Assembly: GCA_017399005.1 (NCBI GenBank)
Contig: JAFQEO010000037.1
Span: 1 to 63,768 of the forward strand
Direction of reading: 5' to 3'
From: Peptococcaceae bacterium
GTDB taxonomy: Bacteria > Bacillota > Peptococcia > Peptococcales > Peptococcaceae
Length of the DNA stretch: 63,768 bases
Position 1 is the stretch's first letter, and each line of letters opens with the position of its first letter. Below are positions 1 to 14,471 of this stretch, piece by piece. The notes below the pieces were generated by a model. The model saw nothing but the letters and a program-made list of their open reading frames with translations, made no database searches and was not told the DNA's origin. The position numbers and the translations under genes are program-made.

Positions 1-1308
1 ATTGCCCTGGTCATATTCCATCTGGATGACAAACACATCACTGTGTTTCCAGTCACGACCCTGCAGAATTTTGCGGGCAGTAATGCTGATATTGTCGCCA
101 ATAGCCGGTGCCGGTTCATAGATATTGATAAACTCAACCGTCTCACCGTCTTCACCGATTTCGATAATCTGCACCGGTTCATCACCGTTTACTCTAAAGC
201 CCGGCATAGCACTCAATTCGGTAACCGTTACTCTGGTGTAGGCATCCACACCTTCAATATCAATCTGTTCACCCGGTTTCAGAGTGATAAGCAACACACC
301 GTTCTCATCGGTAGTAACCTCATCCTCTGTTCTTTCTTCCCCCAGAATACGCACTGCCTTAAAGGTGCGATTCACATAGGAATTTTCAGAATCTTCTTCT
401 TTCGTAGCCTGTTCCTCGTCCTGAGGTTTGTTGTTCTGCCCCTCATTATTCTGAGAGTTATTGTTCAGTGCTTCATCATTCTGCCCCTCATTATTCTGAG
501 AGTTATTGTTCAGTGCTTCATCATTCTGGCTCTCGTTATTCTGAGAGTCATCGCTCAGTGATTCGTCATCCTGACTTTCATTACTCTGAGAGTCGTTATT
601 CAGTAATTCATCATCTGGAGCCTCATTCCCCTGAGATTCATTGTTCAATGTTTCATCATTCTGACTCTCACTATTCTGCGATTCATTACCCGGCACTGCA
701 TCGCTCTGACCTTCACTGCCTTGTGTTTCACCAGCAGGTTCACTTACAGACCCCTCAGTGCCACCAGCTTCACCACCGGATACCTCCGCACCGGTAAAAT
801 TTGTTTTTGCAATTTCACTGCTTATCACATCCGCAGCACCATCCGGCTCCACAGATGTATCAGGTTCAACCACAACGTCCGGTTCTGCCGCACCATCCAT
901 CCCAGCATTGCCCTCAACCGGTGGTTCCATTCCATCTGTTTCCGGTTCACTTACAGAAGGCTGTTCCATTGCAGAACCATCCTCTGCATCATCCAGCAGA
1001 TTCTCCTGCGAACCCTCATACTCCTCCGGAGGCTGCGATTCTGTCATGTTTTCAAACTTAACCTCAAACTCAAACTCCAAATCCCGCGGATATACATAAT
1101 CCGCACCTAGCGGATGCTGCACTGTTTTGGCAATACTTAATGTACCCTGCGTATACGTTGCCGGCTTAAACGTATTTACATAACTCGGTGTACCCGCTAC
1201 CAGAAACGCCATCGTAGCCTGAGCTCCCACCAGCAGTACCAGCCCTGCCGATACCAAAACCGCCAGCCCTTTTCTGTTTTTTATCAGTTCCCGTATTTTA
1301 TGTTTCAA
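1..1308 (-). CDS. Pilin/adhesin-like surface protein, cut by left edge
   Basis: Open from a TTG start at 1308 to the window edge, so the C-terminus is missing. The TTG is chosen because an AAAAGGGGG ribosome site lies about 9 bases before it and no ATG fits. A charged N-terminus is followed by a hydrophobic segment (residues about 14-30) that may be a signal or anchor. Then come a short beta region containing NTFKPATYTQG, an acidic Pro/Glu linker, a 15-residue Asn/Gln/Ser/Glu repeat, and a region reading ITARKILQGRDW, which resembles streptococcal FctA/Spy0128-type isopeptide pilin domains. It is last in the SipW/TasA operon and follows RNA element a. A surface fibre or adhesin subunit is likely; the pilin-domain call is by eye. 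Confidence 0.6.
   Translation of the reverse strand, partial: MKHKIRELIKNRKGLAVLVSAGLVLLVGAQATMAFLVAGTPSYVNTFKPATYTQGTLSIAKTVQHPLGADYVYPRDLEFEFEVKFENMTESQPPEEYEGSQENLLDDAEDGSAMEQPSVSEPETDGMEPPVEGNAGMDGAAEPDVVVEPDTSVEPDGAADVISSEIAKTNFTGAEVSGGEAGGTEGSVSEPAGETQGSEGQSDAVPGNESQNSESQNDETLNNESQGNEAPDDELLNNDSQSNESQDDESLSDDSQNNESQNDEALNNNSQNNEGQNDEALNNNSQNNEGQNNKPQDEEQATKEEDSENSYVNRTFKAVRILGEERTEDEVTTDENGVLLITLKPGEQIDIEGVDAYTRVTVTELSAMPGFRVNGDEPVQIIEIGEDGETVEFINIYEPAPAIGDNISITARKILQGRDWKHSDVFVIQMEYDQGN
436..705 (-). repeat. 45-nt tandem repeat coding a 15-residue hydrophilic spacer
   Basis: About six consecutive 45-nt units lie inside the left-edge surface protein. The units at 436-480 and 481-525 are identical and the rest diverge. 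The period is a multiple of three, so copy-number changes would keep the frame and alter only the length of the Asn/Gln/Glu/Ser stalk. Confidence 0.85.
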
Positions 1309-1403
1309 GGAAACAGTCCCCCTTTTGTGAAAAATAAATCTATGGATAAGTACCTCTCATTATTCTTTCGTTTCATTATTACATTTGGTCAAAATTCTTT
1401 ACA

Positions 1404-1467
1404 GCAATCAAAAGGCACTGGTTTTCTCAATGCCCTTTGATTACCGCCCCGCAAAAGCGGGGTGGTA
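1404..1467 (-). promoter_or_regulatory. Two-hairpin intergenic RNA element, copy a
   Basis: On the minus strand a C/G hairpin (CCCCGC-TTTT-GCGGGG) is followed by a longer hairpin whose arms contain AATCAAAGGGCATTG and CAGTGCCTTTTGATT. It sits between the stop at 1493 and the next gene. It is one of six copies in this operon, all placed just downstream of a TasA-like gene. Confidence 0.75.
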
Positions 1468-1492
1468 AGTATAAAACAATGTTAATTATTTA

Positions 1493-3328
1493 TTATGGAT
1501 ATACTACTGTTACGCCATCATAAGTTTTCAGGCCTTTAACGCCCTGTCCACCACCGAACAGCTGATCAAAGACGATGAGTACATTATGGGACTCGTCAGC
1601 ATTGTGGTTACAGGTAGACAAATCAATGCCATCTGTACCAGTACCAGCTTCAACGCGCGCATACTTATATTCACCTGGGCCGTTGTAACTGCCAGCGCCA
1701 AGATCGGCATCTTCACAATAGTGATAGTTGACCCAATCGCCGTAAGTAACGGTTACATTCTCACAAGTTACATAACCGGTAGGGTCTGCCACACCATTCA
1801 CACCATCTACATGACCAATCAGCATACCGGAATAACGGTACAGCCAGTACTGATAGTTGGCAGCCACGTCATTAATCGCATCTAACTTACAAGCTACGTT
1901 AACATTGCTAAAGCTTACATTGTTGCCGGCATGTACCAGACCTACTACGCCGCCCAGACGGACATCGTAAGTACCCCACAGAGGACCGATTACAGTATCC
2001 TCATCCACGGTGATGTTCGTGAAGGAGCAGGTTCCATAACATTCAGAGGCAACACCGCCAGCAGAGTTATTGTATGCAATCAATGTAGTGTTGGAAATTG
2101 TGATATCAGAGAATGTTGTATCCACCGCATTGCCGACAACACCAGCAGCTTCATTTCTACCGCTGGAGATGTATGCATCTGCGATAGTCACATTCTTAAT
2201 AGTGGCACCATTGGTATATGCAAAAAGACCATAATATTCGCCTTCGTACTGCCAAGCACCAAGGTCACTTTGTTCATACATATTGGAAACGGTATAACCT
2301 TGACCATCAAATGTACCGTTGAAGGACTTCCCGTTAGAAGAATGACCAATAGGGTTAAATCCGATTTTATTGCCATTTTCATCTTCGCAATACAGGTCAA
2401 TATTCTGACCCAGTTTTACAGTTTTACCTGCAAAATTGTTACCACCATCAACTAATTCAGCCAGACCAGCCAGCTGTTCAGCAGTTTCGATTACAAACTC
2501 GGTATCTGTGTCATTATACCAGGATGTATCCGCAGTACCATCCCATGTATCAGCATCACTAGCATTTACTCCATCAAACCACAGCTGTGCATTTTCCTGG
2601 GTAAATTCACCAAAACCAGCAGTCAGAGCAGCTTCAGCACTGTTAAAACCTTCAATCTGTACCGCCTGTGATAAAGCAATTACTTTATATTCATCGCCTG
2701 CAATTTCTGCAAATTCATTATTTGCAGATGGATCCAGCCACATCTGAACTAAACTTGCATTAGAAGACTGACCCGCTACTAACTTGTCGCTATATGTGAA
2801 TGCACATACAGTATAAGTAACATCGTCTTTAGTAATCATAGGATAACTTCCATCATCAGCCACCAGCCATTCAACAATACCGGAAGCCCCCCATAATGTA
2901 TGAATCTGTTCAGTTAAGTAACTGCCATCTTTCAGAACTTTATCCTCAAATGCAAACAGCGTACGTACATAAGCATCTGTTTTACCGCTATTCTTTACAG
3001 TGACAATTTTATCAACTTCACCGTTAATGTTGGCATCCCAGATTTCTTGTGTATTACCATTATCTAAGGTAACAGTACTATCATAGCCATTAGCAACGAT
3101 AACAGCAGGTAACATTCCCTTGTCATTTCTAAAGTCTGTTAAAGCTTCTGCTTTTGGATTCCCATTCTCATCTAATGGTCTCTGCTGCTCAATCTGTTCA
3201 ATCTCTACATTGCCCAGTGTCATTACGTTTACATCGCTAGCAGTATCGCTCAGATACGCCAGAGAGCCGCCAGCTACCAGGCAGGCAATCAGCAGAATAC
3301 TAATCGCCATTGTTGCAAATTTTTTCAT
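1493..3328 (-). CDS. SipW-dependent TasA-like exported protein with GLUG-like C-terminus
   Basis: 611 residues. Residues 1-28 are a SipW-type signal peptide with a GGSLAYL region before the cleavage site. The following VNVMTLGNVEIEQ matches the start of the mature TasA/camelysin fold. Residues about 30-245 align with the other paralogues here (NSGKTDAYVRT, VIALSQAVQ). The remaining 360 residues hold FNPIGHSSNGKSFNGTFDGQ-type motifs typical of GLUG/beta-helix surface repeats. Start chosen at an ATG behind AGAGGAGGC. It probably forms or decorates an extracellular fibre after SipW cleavage. The ligand is unknown. Confidence 0.8.
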   Translation of the reverse strand: MKKFATMAISILLIACLVAGGSLAYLSDTASDVNVMTLGNVEIEQIEQQRPLDENGNPKAEALTDFRNDKGMLPAVIVANGYDSTVTLDNGNTQEIWDANINGEVDKIVTVKNSGKTDAYVRTLFAFEDKVLKDGSYLTEQIHTLWGASGIVEWLVADDGSYPMITKDDVTYTVCAFTYSDKLVAGQSSNASLVQMWLDPSANNEFAEIAGDEYKVIALSQAVQIEGFNSAEAALTAGFGEFTQENAQLWFDGVNASDADTWDGTADTSWYNDTDTEFVIETAEQLAGLAELVDGGNNFAGKTVKLGQNIDLYCEDENGNKIGFNPIGHSSNGKSFNGTFDGQGYTVSNMYEQSDLGAWQYEGEYYGLFAYTNGATIKNVTIADAYISSGRNEAAGVVGNAVDTTFSDITISNTTLIAYNNSAGGVASECYGTCSFTNITVDEDTVIGPLWGTYDVRLGGVVGLVHAGNNVSFSNVNVACKLDAINDVAANYQYWLYRYSGMLIGHVDGVNGVADPTGYVTCENVTVTYGDWVNYHYCEDADLGAGSYNGPGEYKYARVEAGTGTDGIDLSTCNHNADESHNVLIVFDQLFGGGQGVKGLKTYDGVTVVYP

Positions 3329-3420
3329 ATTTATTGCCTCCTCTATTCAGTTTTGTCAGCATCATAAACAAACCATCCCCTGCCGATACTGACAAACCTC
3401 AGAGGCGGTTTTTAAATTTT
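3329..3420 (-). promoter_or_regulatory. Ribosome-site-sequestering leader region, copy 1
   Basis: Upstream of the ATG at 3328, GCCTCT can pair either with the ribosome site AGAGGAGGC or, through CCTCTG, with CAGGGG a little downstream (one G-U pair). TTTGTCAG and CTGACAAA form another stem. The same arrangement precedes the genes at 6016 and 7827. The two pairings exclude one another, so this could act as a translational switch. Confidence 0.5.
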
Positions 3421-3469
3421 GTGCTGTTCCATCCGGGTGCTGGTAATCATCACCATCAGATGGTAATTT

Positions 3470-3511
3470 TTACCCCCCCATATCAATTTTTTGCCATTTG
3501 TATGTTCTCAT
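3470..3511 (-). pseudogene. Leader peptide ORF, copy 1, shortened at the G tract
   Basis: ATG at 3511 follows TAAAGGAG. The first ten codons match copy 2 exactly. The G tract is 7 long rather than 8 and the flanking C is absent (a net 2-nt difference), so the frame meets TAA after 13 codons instead of 33. The DNA beyond the stop still resembles copy 2. This copy therefore ends well upstream of the leader region that contains the ribosome-site pairing. Confidence 0.6.
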
Positions 3512-3573
3512 ATTATTCATTCTCCTTTACACATGGCATTTTGCCAGAATGTTTGAATTGTTCGTTCACCTTC

Positions 3574-3642
3574 GGCAATCAAAAGGTACTGGTTTTTTCA
3601 ATGCCTTTTGATTACCGCCCCACTAAAATGCGAGGCAGCATA
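3574..3642 (-). promoter_or_regulatory. Two-hairpin intergenic RNA element, copy b
   Basis: Same two hairpins as the other copies. The first stem is CCTCGC/GTGGGG, which still pairs through G-U. The second has one C-A mismatch near the loop. It lies between the stop at 3652 and the leader ORF at 3511. Confidence 0.7.
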
Positions 3643-3651
3643 TAATTGCTG

Positions 3652-4437
3652 TTATACTTCCGTTTCCGAGTTCTGTGCTGCAGCCTGGGAAGTTTTCTCT
3701 AAAACAGATGCCGTCCATGGATGAACATCTTCTGTAATGTTTGTAAAAACAGTTTCATCAGACACTGCCCACGATTTCACCATAATTCTATACTGCCCGA
3801 AATTAAATTCTTTACCGGTAACCCCTTTATCAAAACAGAACTGCTTCATGCTATACATGGTTTCATTCACATCAACCGAATTGCAGGTGCAGACAAACAA
3901 ACGATAATCAATTCCGTTTATTGTTGTTTTAACGGCATTTTCTGTAACACGGCCGTTCTGGCCAATACCCTGCCATGTCACACCATCCCGATTTACATTA
4001 AAGTACATCTTATCGACAATATTGTTTGTATCCTGAAACGCAAATACCGTACGCACAGAAACACCGCCGTTCTGTGCCGCAGTAGAATCCTGGCTGCCAT
4101 CTGCATCTGTAGCAGCCGCATCCCCGGCATCAGCAGCTCTGGTAACCGATACAAAGTAATCCACTGCATTGCCAACAGCATTAAAATATCCATCTTTTAC
4201 AACAGGCACTTCCCCCTGATACACCGCCGGGAATAAAGGTTTGGTTAATTCCTCTGCAACCAGCTGCAATGTACCAGCAGCATCCCTCTGCTGCACCTTC
4301 TGGTCAATATAAATACTTTCCGTATTGTTTATCTGTGTAGCAAGGTCATTTCTTGCTGCCTCCGTTGCCAGAGTACTTCCAATGGCCGCTGTTGCAATCA
4401 GCCCCACTGCCAGCAGCATCGTAATCAATTTTTTCAT
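3652..4437 (-). CDS. Short exported TasA-operon protein
   Basis: 261 residues from the ATG at 4437, chosen because GGAAAGGGG lies 8-9 bases before it. A longer reading from 4497 would run into RNA element c. The N-terminus MKKLITMLLAVGLIATAAIG is a signal peptide. The body lacks the VNVMTLGNV signature but keeps operon-typical pieces: QQRDAAGTLQ, FPAVYQGEVP, VRTVFAFQDT and a final VHPWTASVL. There is no beta-helix extension. It is a diverged TasA-like subunit of unknown role, and its junction lacks the leader ORF. Confidence 0.65.
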   Translation of the reverse strand: MKKLITMLLAVGLIATAAIGSTLATEAARNDLATQINNTESIYIDQKVQQRDAAGTLQLVAEELTKPLFPAVYQGEVPVVKDGYFNAVGNAVDYFVSVTRAADAGDAAATDADGSQDSTAAQNGGVSVRTVFAFQDTNNIVDKMYFNVNRDGVTWQGIGQNGRVTENAVKTTINGIDYRLFVCTCNSVDVNETMYSMKQFCFDKGVTGKEFNFGQYRIMVKSWAVSDETVFTNITEDVHPWTASVLEKTSQAAAQNSETEV

Positions 4438-4469
4438 ATGTTCGAACCCCTTTCCGGGATATATTTTTC

Positions 4470-4540
4470 GGCAATCAAAAGGCACTGGTTTCCTCAATGC
4501 CCTTTGATTACCGCCCCGCTCATAAGAGCGGGGACGGTAG
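4470..4540 (-). promoter_or_regulatory. Two-hairpin intergenic RNA element, copy c
   Basis: The clearest copy. Minus strand: TACCG, one bulged T, CCCCGCTC-TTAT-GAGCGGGG, CGGTA. The 3-prime CGGTA also belongs to the second hairpin (GGTAATCAAAGGG pairing with the CCTTTTGATTGCC arm), so the bases of the two stems compete. Confidence 0.75.
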
Positions 4541-4555
4541 AATAATTATTGTTTA

Positions 4556-6016
4556 TTATTCAGCAACTACTGTGTACCAGATATCACCATTAGCCTGTGT
4601 TTCAGATACTACTTTATAACCGTCCATAACTTTAATATTACCCGGGTCATTACCACCAGTAGAAGGGTCAAAGTTTACAAAAGTACCTCCATAGATGTTA
4701 ATAAAGCCCGTGCTACGATTAGCATCTGCCACATTTACTGGACGATTTTCCCATTCTTTATTATGGAAGAACCCACCATAAATATCAATTACACCACCAC
4801 TGGAGTAAATCAGTTCTTCATCCCCAGCACTACCAGTAGAAACAAAGCTGCCACCATTTATGGTAACTTTACCATTTTTCCCTGCCCAGACGGCAATCCC
4901 TTTATCAACATTAACATTAACACCATTAATCACAATTTCGCTTGGCCCCTGTGCATAAAAAACGCTTGCACAGCCTTCGCTATTTGCGGAGTTAATGGTA
5001 CCTTCACCGTTAATAGTCAGTTTGCCGTTATAAGCAGTTGTGTAAAGATAGGTATAACCAGTATTTTTTCCATCCTGATAAGTACCATCATGGTTAATGG
5101 TATGACCATTTAAATTAATGGTATAATCTCTAGCACCTGTGATAGCATATTCACGGTTTCCACTATAATGGTTATCGGCATCCGAAGTGTTGATGTCGGA
5201 AGTCAAAGTGAAATTACCATTTTCCAGAGTAGACTGGTAAACCTCCTCAGAATTATCAACCAGTGTAGGTGCTTGCATATCAGCAAACCATTTTACAACA
5301 TTCGTTGTGTTTACTTCACCAAAAGCAGTGTTCAGAGCTGTAGCTGCAGGACTATTACCATTACTCTGAACTACTGTTTCATTTTCAAAACCTGCTGTTT
5401 GAACAGCCTGAGACAGAACTAATACTTCCCATGTATCACCAAATTTAGCGCAATCCTCATTAGTTGCTTTAGAATCCAGGAAGAGCTGCATTAAAGATGG
5501 AGCAGATTTTTCTTTAGCTTTAAGAGCATCGTTATATGTGAAATCAAAAACTACAAAATCTACACCGTTAATGGCAACGTTAACAGGATCACCAATCGCA
5601 ACATCTGTTGCATTGTAGTTAAAATGAATCAAATTATCCTGGTCATATCCTGGTGCCTCGATAGCAACGATAGTACGTACATATGCATCGGAGTTGCCTT
5701 TGTTTTCTACAGTAACGATTTTATCGATAACATTTTTCAGTTCAGGTGTAAACATTTTGTACTCAACTTCATTAACAGTAACACCATTTTCAGCCCATTC
5801 AATCGGACCAACAGCTGGCATAGCAGGTTTACCCTGAGTAAATTTAGTCAGGCTGCCATCATCAGCTCTTTCCTGTTCAAGCTGTTCAATCTTAACATTA
5901 CCCAGTGTCATTACGTTTACATCGCTGTCTTCACTGGTCAGATATGCCAGAGAACCGCCTGCTACCATTGCGCCAATCAAGCCAACACTGATAGCCATTG
6001 TTGCTAATTTTTTCAT
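4556..6016 (-). CDS. SipW-dependent TasA-like protein with beta-helix-like C-terminus
   Basis: 486 residues. A SipW-type signal (MKKLATMAISVGLIGAMVAG) is followed by LAYLTSEDSDVNVMTLGNV and the TasA-like domain to about residue 245 (VENKGNSDAYVRT, VLVLSQAVQTAGF). The C-terminal half carries short Asn/Gly-rich rungs (NLNGHTIN, KLTINGEGTINS, KVTINGGSF, VIDIYGGFF) as in right-handed beta-helix surface proteins. Start follows AGAGGAGGC. Its 5-prime leader includes leader peptide copy 2 and RNA element d. Likely an extracellular fibre or adhesin variant. Confidence 0.8.
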   Translation of the reverse strand: MKKLATMAISVGLIGAMVAGGSLAYLTSEDSDVNVMTLGNVKIEQLEQERADDGSLTKFTQGKPAMPAVGPIEWAENGVTVNEVEYKMFTPELKNVIDKIVTVENKGNSDAYVRTIVAIEAPGYDQDNLIHFNYNATDVAIGDPVNVAINGVDFVVFDFTYNDALKAKEKSAPSLMQLFLDSKATNEDCAKFGDTWEVLVLSQAVQTAGFENETVVQSNGNSPAATALNTAFGEVNTTNVVKWFADMQAPTLVDNSEEVYQSTLENGNFTLTSDINTSDADNHYSGNREYAITGARDYTINLNGHTINHDGTYQDGKNTGYTYLYTTAYNGKLTINGEGTINSANSEGCASVFYAQGPSEIVINGVNVNVDKGIAVWAGKNGKVTINGGSFVSTGSAGDEELIYSSGGVIDIYGGFFHNKEWENRPVNVADANRSTGFINIYGGTFVNFDPSTGGNDPGNIKVMDGYKVVSETQANGDIWYTVVAE

Positions 6017-6101
6017 ATTTATTAGCCTCCTCTATTCAGTTTTGTCAGCATCACAAAGCAAACCATCCTCTGCCGATACTGACAAACCTCAGAGGCGGTT
6101 T
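6017..6101 (-). promoter_or_regulatory. Ribosome-site-sequestering leader region, copy 2
   Basis: Begins immediately after the stop of the 33-residue leader ORF. GCCTCT can pair with the downstream GGAGGC ribosome site. CCTCTG can instead pair with CAGAGG (6 bp). TTTGTCAG/CTGACAAA gives a third stem. A ribosome ending at the leader stop would cover the GCCTCT element. Confidence 0.55.
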
Positions 6102-6203
6102 TTAAATTTTGTGCTGTTCCATCCGGGTGCTGGTAATCATCACCATCAGATGGTAATTTTTACCCCCCCCGATATCAATTTTTTGCCATTTGTATGTTCT
6201 CAT
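6102..6203 (-). CDS. Conserved 33-residue leader peptide, copy 2
   Basis: Too short for normal gene calling. ATG at 6203 follows TAAAGGAG with about 10-base spacing. An earlier in-frame ATG is too close to the ribosome site. The peptide has an aromatic/basic start (MRTYKWQKID), then GGGKNY encoded across a run of eight G, and a hydrophobic, Thr/Arg-containing tail. Copy 3 preserves GGGKNY, the following Leu, an Ile and the Thr-Arg pair despite many DNA differences, which argues for translation. The stop lies 6 bases before the ribosome-site-pairing GCCTCT. It is either a regulatory leader or a small functional protein; no known family recognised. Confidence 0.55.
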   Translation of the reverse strand: MRTYKWQKIDIGGGKNYHLMVMITSTRMEQHKI

Positions 6204-6265
6204 ATTATTCATTCTCCTTTACACATGGCATTTTGCCAGAATGTTTACATGATTCGTTCACCTTC

Positions 6266-6337
6266 GGCAATCAAAAGGCACTGACATTTCCCAATGCCCT
6301 TTGATTACCGCCCCGCCCATAAGAGAGGGGACGGTAG
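6266..6337 (-). promoter_or_regulatory. Two-hairpin intergenic RNA element, copy d
   Basis: Same element between the stop at 6343 and leader peptide copy 2. The first stem has one mismatch. The second stem keeps full pairing with G-U pairs. Confidence 0.75.
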
Positions 6338-6342
6338 AAATT

Positions 6343-7827
6343 TTAAATGTAACTTAATTCAAAAGAACCACCATAAGAAGCAAAATCAGAATCGGTTACT
6401 GTTTTATCAGTTGTTTTCAGAACTAAATTACCCATTGTAGTACCAACTGTTTCGGCCTGTACAGAAACATTATTCATTGTAACCGTACTGTTCCCCATTC
6501 CAGAAATTGCAGTTTCCAAATCGGTACTGGATGCACCGGCACTCTCAATAACAATCGAACCGCCATTCAGAGTTACATTAGCATTATTTACTGTAATCCC
6601 GTATGTGTAGTTCCATGTCCGATAGGTTTCATTAGAAACTTTAACATTGCAATCATTTAAAACTGCAGTCGCATCAGCCACTTCAAGACCGGTATATTCT
6701 CCATAGGAACGATTACCAGAAACCTGATAATTCAGATAATCATCAATCACAACATTTACATCTTCCATTGTCAGAGTGCCGGAAGATACTTTCAGATGTG
6801 GAACCATGCTGGTTGCACCGGCACTTTCAATTGTACCGTTTTGGATAGAACCGCCAGCTGCAAAGTCCAGACCAACAGTAGCCAGAGTGTGGTTATTTAA
6901 ATCAATAGCACTTTCTTCACTCACTGTTACCGCACTATCAAGAGTAATGTCGCTAGTCAGATATACATCTTCCCCAGCTTCCATTGCTGCAACCAGTTCC
7001 GCTGCAGTAGAAACCGGATTACCCTGAGGAATTACACCGCTAAGCCATTCAGCAGCTGTTTCAGCTGTTACTTCACCAAAGCCTGCATTCAGAGCTTCTG
7101 CAGCATTTTCAAAACCTGCTGTCTGTACTGCCTGAGACAGGGCTAAGATGTTGTAGTTGCCATCTTTATTACCATCAATTGCTTCAACATCTTCATTAGT
7201 GGCAGTATTGTACAACATTACCTGTAATAAAGATGGACGTGTGGTCTCTCCAGAAGCAAGTACACCATTTGGATGTACATCTCTATTGTCACCAGCGTTG
7301 CCAGTATAAGTCGCAACTTTAATGAGATATTTATTGCCTTCAATCTCTACATTAGATGCTACTGTTTCCCAAGCCCAATGAGTAGCATTAATGTTCTGAC
7401 CAACCAGTGCTTCAAATTCTGCTTCAGTTAAATCGCCCTGTTCAAAAGCAAATAATGTGCGAACATACGCTTTACTTGCTCCGGTATTTTCAACAAAAAC
7501 AATTTTATCCTGCACATTTTTCATTTCATCTGTAAACATTGCAGACCCACCGCCAGTAGGCCACTGCTGATAACTATCCGCGAAATCCATTGTGTTATAT
7601 ACAGCTGGGAAAAGCGGTTTGTCCTGCTTAAACTCCTGCAGATTTGTGTCAGCAGTATTGCTGTCACTCTGCTCAATACGTTCTTTTTCAATCTGTTCAA
7701 TCTTTACATTGCCCAGTGTCATTACGTTAACGTCGCTGTCGGTATCACTCAGATAAGCGAGAGAGCCCCCAGCTACCATTGCACCAATTAAGCCAACGCT
7801 TAACGCCATTGTTGCTAATTTTTTCAT
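6343..7827 (-). CDS. SipW-dependent TasA-like protein with beta-helix-like C-terminus
   Basis: 494 residues. Signal peptide MKKLATMALSVGLIGAMVAG, then LAYLSDTDSDVNVMTLGNV and a TasA-like domain to about residue 260 (VENTGASKAYVRT, ILALSQAVQTAGF). The C-terminus (about 265-494) has short repeated strands (DVYLTSDITLDSA, SIQNGTIESAG, NVTLNGGSIVIES, STVTMNNVSV), consistent with a beta-helix. The ATG follows AGAGGAGGC. Preceded by leader peptide copy 3 and RNA element e. It is a paralogue of its neighbours with a different exposed domain, as expected for a variable surface fibre. Confidence 0.8.
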   Translation of the reverse strand: MKKLATMALSVGLIGAMVAGGSLAYLSDTDSDVNVMTLGNVKIEQIEKERIEQSDSNTADTNLQEFKQDKPLFPAVYNTMDFADSYQQWPTGGGSAMFTDEMKNVQDKIVFVENTGASKAYVRTLFAFEQGDLTEAEFEALVGQNINATHWAWETVASNVEIEGNKYLIKVATYTGNAGDNRDVHPNGVLASGETTRPSLLQVMLYNTATNEDVEAIDGNKDGNYNILALSQAVQTAGFENAAEALNAGFGEVTAETAAEWLSGVIPQGNPVSTAAELVAAMEAGEDVYLTSDITLDSAVTVSEESAIDLNNHTLATVGLDFAAGGSIQNGTIESAGATSMVPHLKVSSGTLTMEDVNVVIDDYLNYQVSGNRSYGEYTGLEVADATAVLNDCNVKVSNETYRTWNYTYGITVNNANVTLNGGSIVIESAGASSTDLETAISGMGNSTVTMNNVSVQAETVGTTMGNLVLKTTDKTVTDSDFASYGGSFELSYI

Positions 7828-7913
7828 TTATATTAGCCTCCTCTATTTAGTTTTGCCAGCATCACAAAGTAAACCATCCTCTGCCGATACTGACAACCCT
7901 CAGAGGCGGCTGT
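7828..7913 (-). promoter_or_regulatory. Ribosome-site-sequestering leader region, copy 3
   Basis: Same layout as copies 1 and 2: GCCTCT able to pair with the ribosome site, and the alternative CCTCTG/CAGAGG. It begins directly after the stop codon of leader peptide copy 3. Confidence 0.5.
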
Positions 7914-8006
7914 TTAACTGTTGTTACGGGTTTCATCAATTACCAATTTCAACTGGTAATTTTTACCCCCCCCGAAATTTAATTTTGCCATTTGTACATT
8001 TTTCAT
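7914..8006 (-). CDS. Conserved 30-residue leader peptide, copy 3
   Basis: ATG at 8006 follows AAAGGAG. The reading frame runs MKNVQMAKLNFGGGKNY, then an amphipathic stretch ending in Asn-Ser. The frame passes through eight consecutive G residues and would break on loss or gain of one or two. It shares GGGKNY and the surrounding pattern with copy 2 (6102-6203). Its stop lies a few bases before the GCCTCT element that can occlude the ribosome site of the gene at 7827. Confidence 0.55.
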   Translation of the reverse strand: MKNVQMAKLNFGGGKNYQLKLVIDETRNNS

Positions 8007-8068
8007 AATTTTCTGACTCCTTTACATATGGCATTTTGCCAGAATGTTTGAATTATTCGTTCACCTTC

Positions 8069-8139
8069 GGCAATCAAAAGGCACTAACATAAGGCTAATG
8101 CCCTTTGATTACCGCCCCGCTAAAAAACGGGGACGGTAG
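8069..8139 (-). promoter_or_regulatory. Two-hairpin intergenic RNA element, copy e
   Basis: Same element. Next to the loop of the second hairpin the G-C pair of the other copies is replaced by A-U (ATTA/TAGT), a compensatory change supporting a conserved RNA fold. Confidence 0.75.
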
Positions 8140-8154
8140 ATATTTTTAAATTAA

Positions 8155-10179
8155 TTAGTTTGCCTGTAATCTGAATGTACTGGTATTAGCATCCCAGTAA
8201 GTGCTGTATCCTTCATTCAGGCAAATCAGTTTCGCTTCATCGCCAGCTGTGTAGGTATAATCTGCAGCTGGTTTGAAGTTAAAGTTACTGAATTTTGAAC
8301 TTTCTTCATTCACTTTAAATTTGAAAGAATTGAAGTCCGCTGCCAGATATGCAGTATTGTGATTTGTACCTAAATCGTAAGTAATGCACTCAACATTTGC
8401 ATCACCTACTGTCAGCCCAAGACCACCAGCATAAGACATTACACCCACTGTACCGCCAGTAATGCTCATATTATTGTTATTCGCAAAAATATTGCTTTCT
8501 TCATTATTTACATAGTTATCGTCAACAGAACCATCTTTAATGTTAAGTGTTGTATGATCACATAAACGGAATGCACCACCCAACTCAGTTGCCTTGTTAT
8601 TAACAAAAACTGTACCATTTACATTAATAGTTTCATAGGTACCAGTCCACATAGCACCACCTGCTGTCGCAGAGTTATTAGCAACAATGCCCCCATTGAA
8701 ATTGTATGTTGCTCTATTACCGCCCCAGATAGCACCACCAGTGCCATCAGAAGTGTTGTTTTTCATTTCGCCACCATTCATAGTAAAGGTGATTTTATTA
8801 TATCCATCAACCATACGGATGGCACCACCAATAGTTGTTGCATGGTTACCATTAATTTTAGAACCTTCATTAATGATAATGTCACCGCCACCCCAGATTG
8901 CACCAGCAGCAGAAGTATTGTTAATAATTGCTGCACCATTCAGGGTTAAGCTCCCGCCACCACGAGTAGCTAAAGATACTGCATTTGCACCATTGTTATT
9001 CTGCAGAACAGTCCCCTTATTCAGAACAATACTACCATTGCCTTCTGTAGCAATCAGATTGCCAGTTGCAGTTGCACCTTCACCATTCAGATGTAAACCT
9101 TCCACAGTCAATGTTGCACCATTTTTTACAGTAAACATTGTACCGGTATAACCTTCTACACGACTGTACTGGTAGTTATCAGCTTCAATAGTAATATCGA
9201 ATGTAATCTCTACAGGACGATTGATTACTTTATCAGTAGTTCCCAGAATTTTAATCGTACCGCCACCATTTGCATTGGCAGCTTCTACGGCTTTATAAAT
9301 ATCGTCATATACAATGCTGTTATACTCCGCTTGAGGATTCTCAGTTAAATCCGCCTCGCCATTTGCTTCTGCTTCATCCTTAACTACTTTATCAAACCAA
9401 CCAGTGGCTGTTCCTTCAGTCACATCACCAAAAGATTCATCCAATGCAACAGCGGCACTGGCAAAACCCTGAGCCTGAACTGCCTGAGATAATACATAAA
9501 TTTTCATATTTTCGCCAAAGAGAGCACAATCTTCATTAGTCGCATTATGTGTCATCACAACCTGTAACAGGGATGGACGCGATACTTCATCTGGTTTCAG
9601 AATTTCTGTATAGTTCGCTACAAGCAACGCATACCGCGCATCTTTAAGTGTAATGAAACCTGCATCTTCCCAAACAAAGCGTTCATTGCCATTAACATTC
9701 AGCATAATTTCAGCACCAGCAGCAGCTTCACCGATAGTAATGCCTTCCGGACATTCGACAGCAATTAAAGTACGGTAATAAGCATCAGATGCACCAGTGT
9801 TTTTTACCATAACAATTTTGTCTTTTACATTAGAAAGTTTCGAATCATCCCAAAGACCGTTTCCACCTACACCATTGGTGTAATAGCCCTAATTAAACAA
9901 GTCTGTAGTTTCTGCAGAATAGTCAGTCGCTAAGCCATTCTTAGGAACTGCTGGATAAAGCGGTCCATCCACAAACGTAACCAGCTCCCCGTCTACTGCA
10001 CCATCATTAATATGGCTAACGCCTTCAGCGCGCTGCCATTCCTGCTGTTCAATCTGAACATTACCCAGTGTCATAACGTTTACATCACTGTCATCGCTGG
10101 TCAGATATGCCAGAGAGCCGCCAGCTACCATGCAGGCAATCAGCAGAATACTAATCGCCATTGTTGCAAATTTCTTCAT
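8155..10179 (-). pseudogene. TasA-like beta-helix protein interrupted by in-frame TAG
   Basis: One uninterrupted frame of 675 codons except a TAG at 9889-9891 (codon 97). The first 96 codons give a SipW-type signal (MKKFATMAISILLIACMVAG) and VNVMTLGNVQIEQ. After the TAG the frame continues with GNGLWDD and VKNTGASDAYYRT, the normal TasA-like domain, then a long beta-helix with repeated GGAIWGG/NNSA-type rungs. In the paralogue at 10350-11927 the same position is Trp (LLSWGPYV), so TAG is one transition from TGG. Translation could restart at 9810 but without a signal peptide. TAG is used as a real stop elsewhere (murJ), so recoding is unlikely. Probably a recent nonsense allele or a sequencing error. 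Confidence 0.75.
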
Positions 10180-10258
10180 AAGTTTTGCCTCCTTTATTTT
10201 GTCTTATCATTTCCCCAATAGCATTTTGCCAGAATGTTTACATTATTCGTTCACCTTC

Positions 10259-10330
10259 GGCAATCAAAAGACACTGCACATTCCAATGCCCTTTGATTAC
10301 CGCCCCGCTCATGAGGAGAGGGGACGGTAA
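10259..10330 (-). promoter_or_regulatory. Two-hairpin intergenic RNA element, copy f
   Basis: Most upstream copy of the element in the operon. Pairing is preserved with extra G-U pairs. The stretch that follows, before the ATG at 10179, lacks the leader peptide and goes straight to AAAGGAGGC. Confidence 0.75.
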
Positions 10331-10349
10331 AATAATTAAGATTATTTAA

Positions 10350-11927
10350 TTACTGAGCTGCTTTCCATGCATCGATAGAAGCATATTCTACGCCATTGTC
10401 AACGATTGCACCAACATTTGCACCGTCTTCGATGGTGATATTCACTCCGTTCGGGTCATTGATATTACTCAGGTCGATAGTATTAACTGTAGCACCTGCT
10501 TTAACAGTCAGACCATATTTAGTGGTATTCATATTGCCTAAAATCTTGATAGAATCCACTACTGTACCATCCGCAACAGTAACTTTTGCCTGATTCCACA
10601 TTATAATAGAACCAATTGTACTGTTCTTAATGGTAACATCTGTATAGTTTACAGCTGCTACATCATAAACTGGCCACATTGGATCTGTATCCAGTGGAGA
10701 TAAGGTAGTACCGTATACATTACAATTATTAAGAGTTGCAGTACCGTAAATGCAAACAGCAGGAGAAACATTATTGGAGAAAGATACAACCTCAGTATTA
10801 ATTACGTCCACGTTATTGAAAACAGTATTGTAATTGTTGTAAGTTGACCCTTGATAATGCCCCAGCATAATAGCAGACATTGTACCACTAAAGGACAAAT
10901 CATTTACAGTAACAGTACTACCGTCCGCAGAAGAGAAAATAGCAGACATTGCCGGGATAGTACCACCTTCCCACTGGAATGCATCAACGGAAGTTGCTGT
11001 ACCTACAACAGTGTTATCATTACCGTTAATAGTTACAGCCTCAGTTACATCCTGAGTATGGAAATAGCCTGTGTCAATGGTGATAATATCACCTGTCAGT
11101 TCGTATGTGCCAGCATCTGTAATTCCAAGTTCATTAACAAAAGTAGCGTTAACCCAAGGATGATTTTCAGCTGTAATATCGCCAAAAGCAGCGTCTAATG
11201 CTGTTGTAGCATCAGCAAAACCATCAGCCTGAACAGCCTGAGACACTACTAAAATTTCATAAGTATCACCCAGTTTTTCAACTGTATCATTTGTTGCATT
11301 GTGTGTCATAACCACCTGCAGCAGGGATGGACGGGAAATTTCATCAGGTTTCAGAGCTTCCTGATAGGTTGCAACCTCAACAAGATATCTAGTTCCATCA
11401 ATAGTTGTGTAACCAACTTCTTCCCAATCAAATAAATCATGACCATTCACATTCATCATAAATTCTTTATCCGACCCCTGACTGTATTCAGTACCTTCCG
11501 GACATTCAAATGCAATGATTGTTCTGTAATATGCATCAGATTTCCCGGTGTTTTCAACAAACACCATTTTATCTACGACATTGCTCAGTTTGTCGTCATT
11601 CCACAAACCATTGCCAGCACCTGGTGCAGTAACATAAGGTCCCCAAGAAAGCAAGTTAGATTGTTCAGCTGTATATGCACTATCATCTGCAGGTACAGCC
11701 GGCATCAGACTCGACCCCTGTTTAAAATCTACCAGATCGCCATCGGTCAATGTGCCAGTATGCTCAATATTTTCTGCACGCTGATACTCATGCTGCGCAA
11801 TCTCTACATTGCCCAGTGTCATAACGTTAACATCACGGTCTTCGCTAGTCAGATATGCTAAAGAGCCGCCGGCTACCATAGTACCGATTAAGCCAACGCT
11901 CAGCGCTACTGTTGCAAATTTTTTCAT
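10350..11927 (-). CDS. SipW-dependent TasA-like protein with beta-helix-like C-terminus
   Basis: 525 residues. Signal peptide MKKFATVALSVGLIGTMVAG followed by LAYLTSEDRDVNVMTLGNV. The TasA-like domain spans about 30-265 (GNGLWNDDKLSNVVDKMVF, YYRTIIAFECPEG, ILVVSQAVQADGF). The C-terminal part is strand-rich (YELTGDIITIDTG, NGNDNTVVGTA, TVTVNDLSFSG, ATLNNCNVYG), like a beta-helix. It is the closest paralogue of the interrupted gene next to it. Only 89 bases separate it from the preceding gene, with no copy of the repeated RNA element there. Confidence 0.8.
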   Translation of the reverse strand: MKKFATVALSVGLIGTMVAGGSLAYLTSEDRDVNVMTLGNVEIAQHEYQRAENIEHTGTLTDGDLVDFKQGSSLMPAVPADDSAYTAEQSNLLSWGPYVTAPGAGNGLWNDDKLSNVVDKMVFVENTGKSDAYYRTIIAFECPEGTEYSQGSDKEFMMNVNGHDLFDWEEVGYTTIDGTRYLVEVATYQEALKPDEISRPSLLQVVMTHNATNDTVEKLGDTYEILVVSQAVQADGFADATTALDAAFGDITAENHPWVNATFVNELGITDAGTYELTGDIITIDTGYFHTQDVTEAVTINGNDNTVVGTATSVDAFQWEGGTIPAMSAIFSSADGSTVTVNDLSFSGTMSAIMLGHYQGSTYNNYNTVFNNVDVINTEVVSFSNNVSPAVCIYGTATLNNCNVYGTTLSPLDTDPMWPVYDVAAVNYTDVTIKNSTIGSIIMWNQAKVTVADGTVVDSIKILGNMNTTKYGLTVKAGATVNTIDLSNINDPNGVNITIEDGANVGAIVDNGVEYASIDAWKAAQ

Positions 11928-12016
11928 AATTATTTGCCTGCTCAGTTTTGTTATTTGTCAGCATTTTTTACCCACACTCCCGCCTGCCGACAATCGTCAG
12001 AAGCTGGTTTGTTACC

Positions 12017-12709
12017 TTACTCTTCTTCAGGTTCTTCCTGAGCCTGTTCTAATTCCATCTGTTCCTGTACCAGCAGCCAGGCTTCTTCCGGTTCGTCAAA
12101 GCCTTCTTTTTGCACAGCATAGGCGGTTACCGTTAACGTTGGATAAAATTCATTCCCCTGTTCATGCAGCATCTGCAAGTCGGTACGGGTTACGTTTTCC
12201 TGCACATATACCATATCTTCCTGAATCACATGCAGCCCGCCAGCTGCTTCTTCCATGGATGCTTCATCGGCCAGTTCCCGGTAGTAAACGCCGTCGTATT
12301 CCGGCAGGGCAATCCAGCCGTCTGCAATATCATAAGTCAGATAACTGTCAAATTTTTCAGACTTCTCAAGATGCACAAACAGCCAGCAAAATTCGCTTCC
12401 GCCGGCAACTGTCACTACAGGATTTTTGGTAATTGCTTTGCCCGGCAGCATGATATACTCATTCGGGATAACATCATCGTCCGGATTATCATCCGGAATG
12501 GTATAATCTTCCGTCAGTACAAGCTGCACATCGCCGTAGGTAAAGGTATTTACCAGTACCCCGGTTTGCCCGGTCAGCCAGGCCAGTACTCCGCTGATGG
12601 ATACAGAGCAGATAAGTGCCACCGCCGCCAGCGAAAGTATTAATTTGTTTATGGTTTTCATCTGTAACGCTGCCTTTTTAGCATGTTTACATTGATACAT
12701 GCGATACAT
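12017..12709 (-). CDS. Short SipW-dependent TasA-family protein
   Basis: 230 residues. The ATG at 12709 is preferred because GAAAGGAG lies 9 bases upstream. An internal ATG at 12661 has only a weak site. A basic N-terminus of about 20 residues precedes a hydrophobic signal segment ending in GVLAWLTG. GVLVNTFTYGDVQLVLTEDY is the TasA/camelysin mature start. Later features are PGKAITKNPVVTVAGGSE and an AVQKEGFDEPEEAW end, followed by an acidic tail. There is no beta-helix extension, so it may be a minor or base subunit of the fibre. Confidence 0.75.
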   Translation of the reverse strand: MYRMYQCKHAKKAALQMKTINKLILSLAAVALICSVSISGVLAWLTGQTGVLVNTFTYGDVQLVLTEDYTIPDDNPDDDVIPNEYIMLPGKAITKNPVVTVAGGSEFCWLFVHLEKSEKFDSYLTYDIADGWIALPEYDGVYYRELADEASMEEAAGGLHVIQEDMVYVQENVTRTDLQMLHEQGNEFYPTLTVTAYAVQKEGFDEPEEAWLLVQEQMELEQAQEEPEEE

Positions 12710-12741
12710 GCCGTTCTGCTCCTTTCAGCCGAGATTTTTTA

Positions 12742-13707
12742 TTATTCGTCACCATCGCTGGAACCGCCAGCAGGGGTTCCGCCAGCAGGGGTTCCGCCAG
12801 TAGTGCCAGTGTCTGTACCGGTATTTCCGGAGTCAGCATTGTCACCGTTGGAATCGCCATTATTAGAATTGTCATCAGTTGAATCAGTTGTGTCAGAATC
12901 AGCTGGAGCGTTTACGCTCATCTGCTGTTCAAAACCAGCCCATGCAGCTTTTGCATCAGCAAAACCTTCAGCCTGAATTGCCTGGCCAACTACAACCATT
13001 TCAAAGTCGTTATCATACAGTGCTTTCAGCTGATCGTTGTTGATAATGCCTGGCAGAGTAAAGGAATCGAATAATGCATCCAGTTTTACATCCTCATCTT
13101 TTTCAGTTACATTGCCTGCAGCGTCAGTTACAGAAACAACACCATCCACAGTTTCTTTATAACGGAATTCATAAGTAATGTATTTGCCGTCTTCGTCTTC
13201 AGAACGTGTATCACCTACATACATCCATTCCTTTTCATCATAGCCGTTAAAAATGCTTCTTAAATCCGCATTTCCTGCACCGGCAGCACGCAGAATATCA
13301 AAAATTTCATCCAGTTCATCTGCACAGTTTACAATTACCAGCATACGTACATATGCATCTTCACTACCAGCTTTTACAGTCACAGTAGGGTCTTTTACAT
13401 ACTCTTTGCCAGGAACCAGTTTGTACTTGTTACCATCTTTTGTACGAACAACATCTTCTTCTGGAACAGCATCAGGGTCTTTCACAGGGTTACCGTCTGC
13501 ATCAACAACAGGCTCGCCGTTTTTATCAACAATTTCCCCTTTTTCGTTTACCTTTGCCTCGTCCAGGTCAAGTTTTACATCGCCGACAGTAAAAGTATTA
13601 GTCACTTTTGCTTCCGATGTCAGATAAGCCAGAGTACCGAACAGTGCGGTAGACAGTACCAGTGCCAGGCTGACAAACAGAATCAGTTTTTTAGATTTTC
13701 CTTTCAT
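12742..13707 (-). CDS. SipW-dependent TasA-family protein with Gly/Asp/Asn tail
   Basis: 321 residues. Signal peptide about 1-27 ending GTLAYLTSEAKV, then TNTFTVGDVKLDLDEA, the classical TasA-type beginning. Also present are LVPGKEYVKDPTVTVKAGSE and VVGQAIQAEGFADAKAAW, all hallmarks of this family. The last 50 residues are a low-complexity Asp/Asn/Gly/Thr spacer with a repeated GGTPA unit, encoded by a 15-nt direct repeat near 12770-12800. First structural gene after sipW, so plausibly the major subunit. Confidence 0.8.
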   Translation of the reverse strand: MKGKSKKLILFVSLALVLSTALFGTLAYLTSEAKVTNTFTVGDVKLDLDEAKVNEKGEIVDKNGEPVVDADGNPVKDPDAVPEEDVVRTKDGNKYKLVPGKEYVKDPTVTVKAGSEDAYVRMLVIVNCADELDEIFDILRAAGAGNADLRSIFNGYDEKEWMYVGDTRSEDEDGKYITYEFRYKETVDGVVSVTDAAGNVTEKDEDVKLDALFDSFTLPGIINNDQLKALYDNDFEMVVVGQAIQAEGFADAKAAWAGFEQQMSVNAPADSDTTDSTDDNSNNGDSNGDNADSGNTGTDTGTTGGTPAGGTPAGGSSDGDE

Positions 13708-13802
13708 TGTCGCACCTCCTTTTTAATTTTTTTCAGAAAAAGCGGTTTGCTTTATTCTCTGAGTGTATATCTGCAGTTCAGAACCGGTAAACGCTCTGAA
13801 CA

Positions 13803-14396
13803 TTACAGCGTATCGGATGGTTCTTCCTGTTCCGGCTTTTCTTCCGGTTCATTCTCATTTTCTTTGCGTTTTTTCTTTTTCTGTGGCTTGTCGCTCTCAC
13901 CGGCAAGAGAATCGGTCAGCAATACAAACAGCATCAGCCCTGCTGCCACCGAAACCGCAATGTACATGCCCGGCGGCTGCTGGATATAACTTGCCAGATA
14001 GCCAAGCTGCGGGATACTGAACACCGGTTTCCCGACTACCTGGTTACAGGCCACTAAGCTGCCGTCCTCCATTTCGTTGGCATCGCCTTTGGTTCGGAAA
14101 TACTGGTTATTCGGATTTTCCGTATCCGGCACCACTTCTACAATACGGTGGGTTACCAGAGTATCCTCCGATACACGGAAGGTAACCGGATCACCGTTTT
14201 CCAGTGTCATCGGGTCTACTTCTTTTACATAAATCAGTGAGCCGGTCTGATAGGTTGGTTCCATAGAACCGGATAACACCACATACACATCAAAGCCAAT
14301 AAACCGCACCCCTACCAGTAGAAATGCCAGTATTACAACAGCGGCCACAAGCCCTGTGCTGACACCGTTCAGAATTTTCAGTATTTTTTTATTCAT
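13803..14396 (-). CDS. sipW: Signal peptidase I, SipW (ER-type, S26B)
   Basis: 197 residues. Membrane segment about 13-32, then LSGSMEPTY with catalytic Ser44, VTHRIVEV with His83 in place of the usual bacterial Lys, and TKGDAN with Asp105. This Ser/His arrangement defines the SipW/ER-type enzymes that cleave TasA-like preproteins. A second membrane segment near 145-165 and a Lys/Glu-rich cytoplasmic tail follow. It directly precedes the TasA-like genes on the same strand, so its substrates are very probably the exported proteins of this operon. Confidence 0.92.
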   Translation of the reverse strand: MNKKILKILNGVSTGLVAAVVILAFLLVGVRFIGFDVYVVLSGSMEPTYQTGSLIYVKEVDPMTLENGDPVTFRVSEDTLVTHRIVEVVPDTENPNNQYFRTKGDANEMEDGSLVACNQVVGKPVFSIPQLGYLASYIQQPPGMYIAVSVAAGLMLFVLLTDSLAGESDKPQKKKKRKENENEPEEKPEQEEPSDTL

Positions 14397-14471
14397 ATAG
14401 CCTATTACCTTCTTTCTGTTTATGAACTGTTTATGAAAAAACGCACTTATTTTTCCAAAAACACATCGGCA

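Follow-up and report, generated by a model that had tools for sequence, protein, structure and literature searches.

In the window analysed here (the whole 63,768-nt stretch of DNA), three minus-strand genes for SipW/TasA-type secreted proteins, starting at 3328, 6016 and 7827, each lie just downstream of a related module some 200 nt long. We propose that each module could be a translational gate built on a short leader ORF, whose frame would be set by a G tract and in which slippage of the tract would make a switch; we give this reading a probability of roughly 0.4. The anatomy appears real and unusual, and a translational gate is its likeliest interpretation, while the use of the gate as a phase-variable switch is plausible as a prediction from one genome. 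We hold more tentatively that the modules may be phase-variable translational attenuators in the full sense, in which slippage would move the leader stop off the hairpin that sequesters the Shine-Dalgarno (SD) sequence, so that paralogous surface proteins could be switched independently while they themselves stay unmutated.

The first-pass annotation of this DNA described two intact small ORFs, each following a ribosome site, and a third copy with a net loss of 2 nt at its tract, all of them upstream of TasA paralogues. These observations hold. Copies 2 and 3 were recovered at the same coordinates on the minus strand, each behind an AAAGGAG motif; copy 1 stops after 13 codons because CG8 became G7; and the three downstream genes are all of the TIGR04088 type (Table 1). 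The tract of copy 2 had been misplaced at 6172-6179, and the positions of the other two were refined to those listed. The downstream genes share their type of signal peptide with SipW-dependent TasA/camelysin-type proteins (TIGR04088), and a SipW-like signal peptidase is encoded nearby, which scores 114 bits against the SipW model NF046067, below its cut-off of 190.

Table 1. Coordinates of the leader modules, the genes downstream and associated features. Positions are those of the window unless a contig is named; the leader and SD-sequestering hairpins are predictions.
Feature	Position	Strand	Remarks
SipW/TasA-type secreted protein gene, 3' of copy 1	1493..3328	-	611 aa; TIGR04088
SipW/TasA-type secreted protein gene, 3' of copy 2	4556..6016	-	486 aa; TIGR04088; alignment A1
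SipW/TasA-type secreted protein gene, 3' of copy 3	6343..7827	-	494 aa; TIGR04088, E 2.2e-5
SipW-like signal peptidase of the cluster	13803..14396	-	TIGR02228, 94 bits, over cut-off
Leader ORF, copy 1	3470..3511	-	frameshifted at tract, 13 codons; predicted OFF
Leader ORF, copy 2	6102..6203	-	33 codons + stop; G8 in frame; MRTYKWQKIDIGGGKNYHLMVMITSTRMEQHKI
Leader ORF, copy 3	7914..8006	-	30 codons + stop; G8 in frame; MKNVQMAKLNFGGGKNYQLKLVIDETRNNS
Leader ribosome site AAAGGAG, copy 2	6214..6220	-	10 nt 5' of ATG
Leader ribosome site AAAGGAG, copy 3	8017..8023	-	10 nt 5' of ATG
G7 tract, copy 1	3473..3479	-	CG8 to G7
G8 tract, copy 2	6163..6170	-	
G8 tract, copy 3	7966..7973	-	
Leader hairpin TGCCAT-G-TGTA / TACA-A-ATGGCA, copy 2	6184..6230	-	encloses leader SD and ATG
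Leader hairpin TGCCAT-A-TGTA / TACA-A-ATGGCA, copy 3	7986..8033	-	encloses leader SD and ATG
SD-sequestering hairpin, copy 1	3337..3408	-	intact
SD-sequestering hairpin, copy 2	6026..6098	-	CCGCCUCU from 6098 pairs with SD AGAGGAGG at 6026-6033
SD-sequestering hairpin, copy 3	7837..7909	-	anti-SD from 7909; SD at 7837-7844
Hairpin repeat	1404-1450, 3560-3625, 4467-4520, 6253-6314, 8056-8122, 10246-10309		
Hairpin repeat	contig C1: 1366, 7366, 11029		

The structure predicted for the modules has two parts. In the first, TACAAATGGCA pairs as the 3' arm with TGCCAT-N-TGTA to form a hairpin whose loop would expose the leader ribosome site; in the model, the probability of being unpaired is 0.78-0.87 for the leader SD (0.78 in copy 2 and 0.84 in copy 3) and 0.04-0.53 for the leader AUG, which is thus partly paired. 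In the second, a 73-nt hairpin, CCGCCUCU is predicted to sequester the SD of the TasA gene, AGAGGAGG, whose modelled probability of being unpaired is 0.14-0.20. The stretch between leader stop and gene folds with -35.2 kcal/mol in copy 2 (z = -6.1) and -38.9 kcal/mol in copy 3 (z = -6.0), and the corresponding stretch of copy 1 with -30.7 kcal/mol (z = -5.3); none of 200 shuffles reaches such a stability in any of the three. In both in-frame copies, the leader stop lies 3-4 nt 5' of the anti-SD arm, and although the leaders of copies 2 and 3 are unequal in length, 85 and 86 nt, respectively, separate it from the gene start. Shuffled leaders place their first in-frame stop 0-6 nt 5' of the anti-SD in 4.5% (copy 2) and 1.4% (copy 3) of cases. 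Leaderless TasA-like paralogues (at 11927, 10179, 4437, C1:12668 and C1:10978) have no such SD hairpin, and the cost of opening the SD of our three genes ranks 3, 4 and 11 among 51 ORFs taken from the window and C1, which is high but not extreme. The ten pairs of the leader hairpin are all invariant across the three copies, which are paralogous and not independent; since nearly all pairs of the key helices are invariant, compensatory changes that would prove these helices are lacking, and the three copies give no covariation support.

These predictions suggest how the gate might work. Ribosomes would load at the leader site in its open loop and, with the tract in frame (G8, as in copies 2 and 3), would terminate beside the strong hairpin in which the downstream SD is locked, displacing the anti-SD arm so that the TasA-like protein could be made. 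With a tract off by 1 or 2 bases, as in copy 1, they would stop 39-61 nt short, and the hairpin would remain shut, with low translation of the gene. Translation of the leader and the position of its stop would thus matter, and the sequence of the peptide would not. Finally, and this is the weakest step, slippage of the tract would provide a heritable on/off switch acting on the three surface proteins independently.

Modelling of the opening step is consistent with such a sequence of events. A ribosome that terminates in the G8 frame and extends 10 nt beyond the stop codon lowers the modelled cost of SD opening from 9.7 to 3.8 kcal/mol in copy 2 and from 8.7 to 4.1 kcal/mol in copy 3, while a shorter reach opens the SD only partly and leaves 5.7-7.2 kcal/mol to be paid. 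In copies 2 and 3 modelled with G6, G7 or G9, termination comes 39-61 nt too early and the cost remains at about 10-11 kcal/mol; copy 1 with its native G7 is predicted to be closed, at 8.4 kcal/mol, and a tract of G6 or G9 would open it. Two of the features that define coupling, a short ORF with an accessible SD of its own and a main-gene SD sequestered within reach of the leader ribosome, are both present by computation. Since the position of the leader stop would let a terminating ribosome free the SD of the gene, the G run could act as a switch. The first-pass annotation had proposed that the frame of the tract switches the downstream gene, and this proposal gains structural support in that the stop abuts the anti-SD arm and is reached only in frame.

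Comparable control by the position of a ribosome on a leader is well known from the erm/cat leader-peptide attenuators, in which a drug-stalled ribosome opens an SD-sequestering hairpin and the peptide sequence matters. The modules resemble them in having a leader ORF 5' of an SD-sequestering hairpin, with accessibility decided by where the ribosome stands on the leader, and differ in that termination at the stop is proposed here, the peptide is seemingly unconstrained and the frame depends on a mutable tract. The nearest documented mechanism is that of iraD in E. coli, a gene with a sequestered SD to which the short ORF27 is coupled and where translation of ORF27 is needed for opening (PMC5574718). 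Both systems combine a short upstream ORF that has its own SD with a strong structure that sequesters the SD of the main gene. In contrast, the stop of ORF27 overlaps the iraD start, whereas here it lies 85-86 nt upstream beside the anti-SD arm; iraD carries no G tract; and its regulator, CsrA, has no homologue in this genome, which is 99.8% complete and contains no match to PF02599, so that control by CsrA was rejected.

The tracts of the modules are not chance background. They are the sole G or C runs of at least 7 in the window, and only 13 such runs occur in the 2.41-Mb genome, where about 99 would be expected from base composition alone; runs of 8 number 4, against about 22 expected on the same basis, and 2 of the 4 are those of copies 2 and 3. 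As for the remaining two, one (C7:8493-8500; L051 near 4494) lies at the ribosome site of a gene for a secreted surface protein, where the same frame is also open upstream and across the tract, and the other, on C21, is in an unrelated region with no shared design; neither was retained as a further case of the leader design. Among the tract lengths computed, only G5, G8 and G11 keep the leaders of copies 2 and 3 in frame, and the others bring a stop after 13-19 codons from the proper ATG. In neither copy does a tract of 5 to 11 Gs give a frame that continues into the gene, and the idea that the tract governs a frame fusion to TasA was discarded.

Whether the tract also mutates often enough to serve as a switch is a separate matter. 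The tract is the lone difference between copies 1 and 2 across 178 alignment columns, which suggests a mutable site. Nevertheless, copy 1 has lost a C plus a G, so its change is not a clean one in the number of Gs and may be simple decay; the genome encodes MutS, which argues against very fast slippage; and eight Gs are short for fast switching. The phase variation put forward in the first-pass annotation is weakened on the first two of these counts. They also favour an alternative in which coupling or attenuation operates without phase variation and the leader gates the gene according to the conditions of translation, the G tract being incidental or structural and copy 1 a decayed leader. Coupling geometry is the best-supported part of our proposal, and the closest documented mechanism, that of iraD, does without a tract (PMC5574718). 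However, this alternative has to accommodate a G8 kept by both intact copies, whose ORFs are otherwise about 51-77% identical, in a genome depleted of poly-G, as well as the 178 columns over which copies 1 and 2 differ solely at the tract; we regard it as a serious contender, if on balance a rather unlikely one.

With respect to slippage, the leaders can be compared with Cj0170 of Campylobacter jejuni, a poly-G contingency locus whose reference state is G8-ON (PMC11955535, PMC4965091). Its G tract is of similar length, lies in a reading frame and, when the frame is lost, translation ends just past the tract. Unlike here, that tract is in the protein-coding gene itself and not in a separate short leader ORF, and what we have seen in our one genome is only the difference between CG8 and G7 among paralogues.

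An important question is whether selection acts on the leader peptide or on the nucleic acid that encodes it. The first-pass annotation favoured the peptide, on the grounds that GGGKNY and a Thr-Arg tail are kept although the DNA has diverged, but the codons concerned are the nucleotide-identical parts of copies 2 and 3. Between these copies, identity is 1.00 in a 21-nt block around CG8 (21/21), 0.91 in the hairpin 3' of the leader stop and 0.85 in the leader 5' region, and it is 0.77 and 0.51 in the N-terminal and C-terminal parts of the ORF, so the ORF outside the G block is the least conserved part. TACAAATGGCA is kept as DNA, yet the two copies read it in different frames because indels of +1 and -1 flank it. 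The excess of pS over pN that would mark a conserved peptide family is not seen, as pN is 0.38 and pS is 0.33 (pN/pS about 1.2). Thus, a conserved and selected peptide family, to which the 11 identical residues among 26 aligned and the shared GGGKNY would point, is very improbable: identical residues come largely from identical nucleotides, the conserved DNA of the N-terminal part changes frame, and the peptide has no match in the genus. What is conserved is DNA or RNA, namely, the leader ribosome site in its putative exposed loop, the CG8 block and the predicted 73-nt hairpin. The indels that separate the two leader ORFs (+1, -1 and -9) sum to multiples of three and preserve the frame. A frame that is kept around a sequence that is not would fit selection for translation and stop position instead of sequence, although the evidence is modest, as chance could suffice to explain so few indels.

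In the leader, the CG8-TAAAAATTACCA block alone is fully identical in copies 2 and 3, which would also suit a target for a C/U-rich small RNA, with tract length tuning expression gradually and the ORF being incidental. Such a mechanism is established in Helicobacter pylori, where the small RNA RepG pairs with a variable G-repeat in the 5' UTR of the receptor gene tlpB and exerts graded control (PMC8295292). The position of the repeat, in the mRNA leader 5' of the gene, is the same in our modules, but control of tlpB acts through pairing with the small RNA and involves no leader ORF frame. As a small RNA target would leave unexplained a short ORF with its own SD, the frame-preserving indels and the stop beside the anti-SD arm, we consider it quite improbable here. 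Known cis-regulatory RNAs of Rfam were rejected as well, since only four tRNAs reach the gathering score in the window and nothing relevant appears in region 3200-12100 at E values up to 5. No intrinsic terminator or attenuator was found at the leader, and promoter-like sites there are at chance level.

The first-pass annotation suggested a search for the GGGKNY small ORF in related genomes. The peptide has no counterpart in the genus, and neither the module nor these TasA-like genes were found in the genomes searched from the genus (seven other species), the family and the class. One match in the genus (genome G006) proved to mark the boundary between genes of an unrelated operon, matches in the family were short and chance-like, and a pattern search of broader genome contigs yielded four matches in unrelated taxa, which we took as chance. 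Viral contigs, phages and plasmids gave no match to the module. Outside this genome, no TasA-like homologue was found in the class at the threshold used, and distant TasA-like matches were limited to 1 genome in a sample of 398 from the phylum. As no relative among those searched carries the module, the cluster looks acquired or restricted to this species. This restriction is compatible with a duplicated intergenic cassette that is structured and has no regulatory role, for instance, an mRNA stabiliser or a relic of gene conversion, as is the fact that copies 1 and 2 have about 310 nt in common at 94% identity, flanking hairpin repeats included. Neutral copying would nevertheless have difficulty in explaining why the diverged copy 3 retains the SD-sequestering arm, the leader SD and the frame, and we think that such a cassette is an unlikely explanation.

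The proposed gate plausibly combines two known principles. Phase variation by homopolymer tracts normally takes place inside coding sequences or promoters. If the gate exists, placing the tract in a leader ORF would separate the switch from the protein, and one cassette could be copied before different surface genes. Annotation would miss such a switch, because gene calling passes over ORFs this short and the protein genes appear intact. A testable rule would be to look for poly-G in a short ORF that ends at an anti-Shine-Dalgarno arm. The titles and abstracts of the TasA/SipW literature that we found mention no such leader ORF or G tract, and those of the literature searched, whose coverage is partial, name no homopolymer-gated leader ORF.

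Several other features of the cluster deserve mention. A second SipW/TasA cluster (C1 1-16000, L016) matches positions 1-14400 of the window in gene order beside the signal peptidase, and the start of both contigs lies in the same repeated gene; the leader module was not found in the C1 cluster. Within the window, the TasA-like paralogue at 8155-10179 (minus strand) is interrupted by an in-frame TAG (9889-9891), with frame and homology continuing on both sides, and its start region has neither leader nor SD hairpin. Between the genes of copies 1 and 2 lies a diverged, shorter TasA-like paralogue (3652-4437, minus strand), whose start region differs (AAAGGGGTTCGAACATATG). Finally, most genes of the SipW/TasA clusters are followed by a long, near-perfect hairpin repeat (GGTAATCAAAGGGCATTG ... 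CAGTGCCTTTTGATTGCC), whose 9 matches in the genome all fall on the two cluster contigs and which is perhaps a cluster-specific mRNA stabiliser or terminator.
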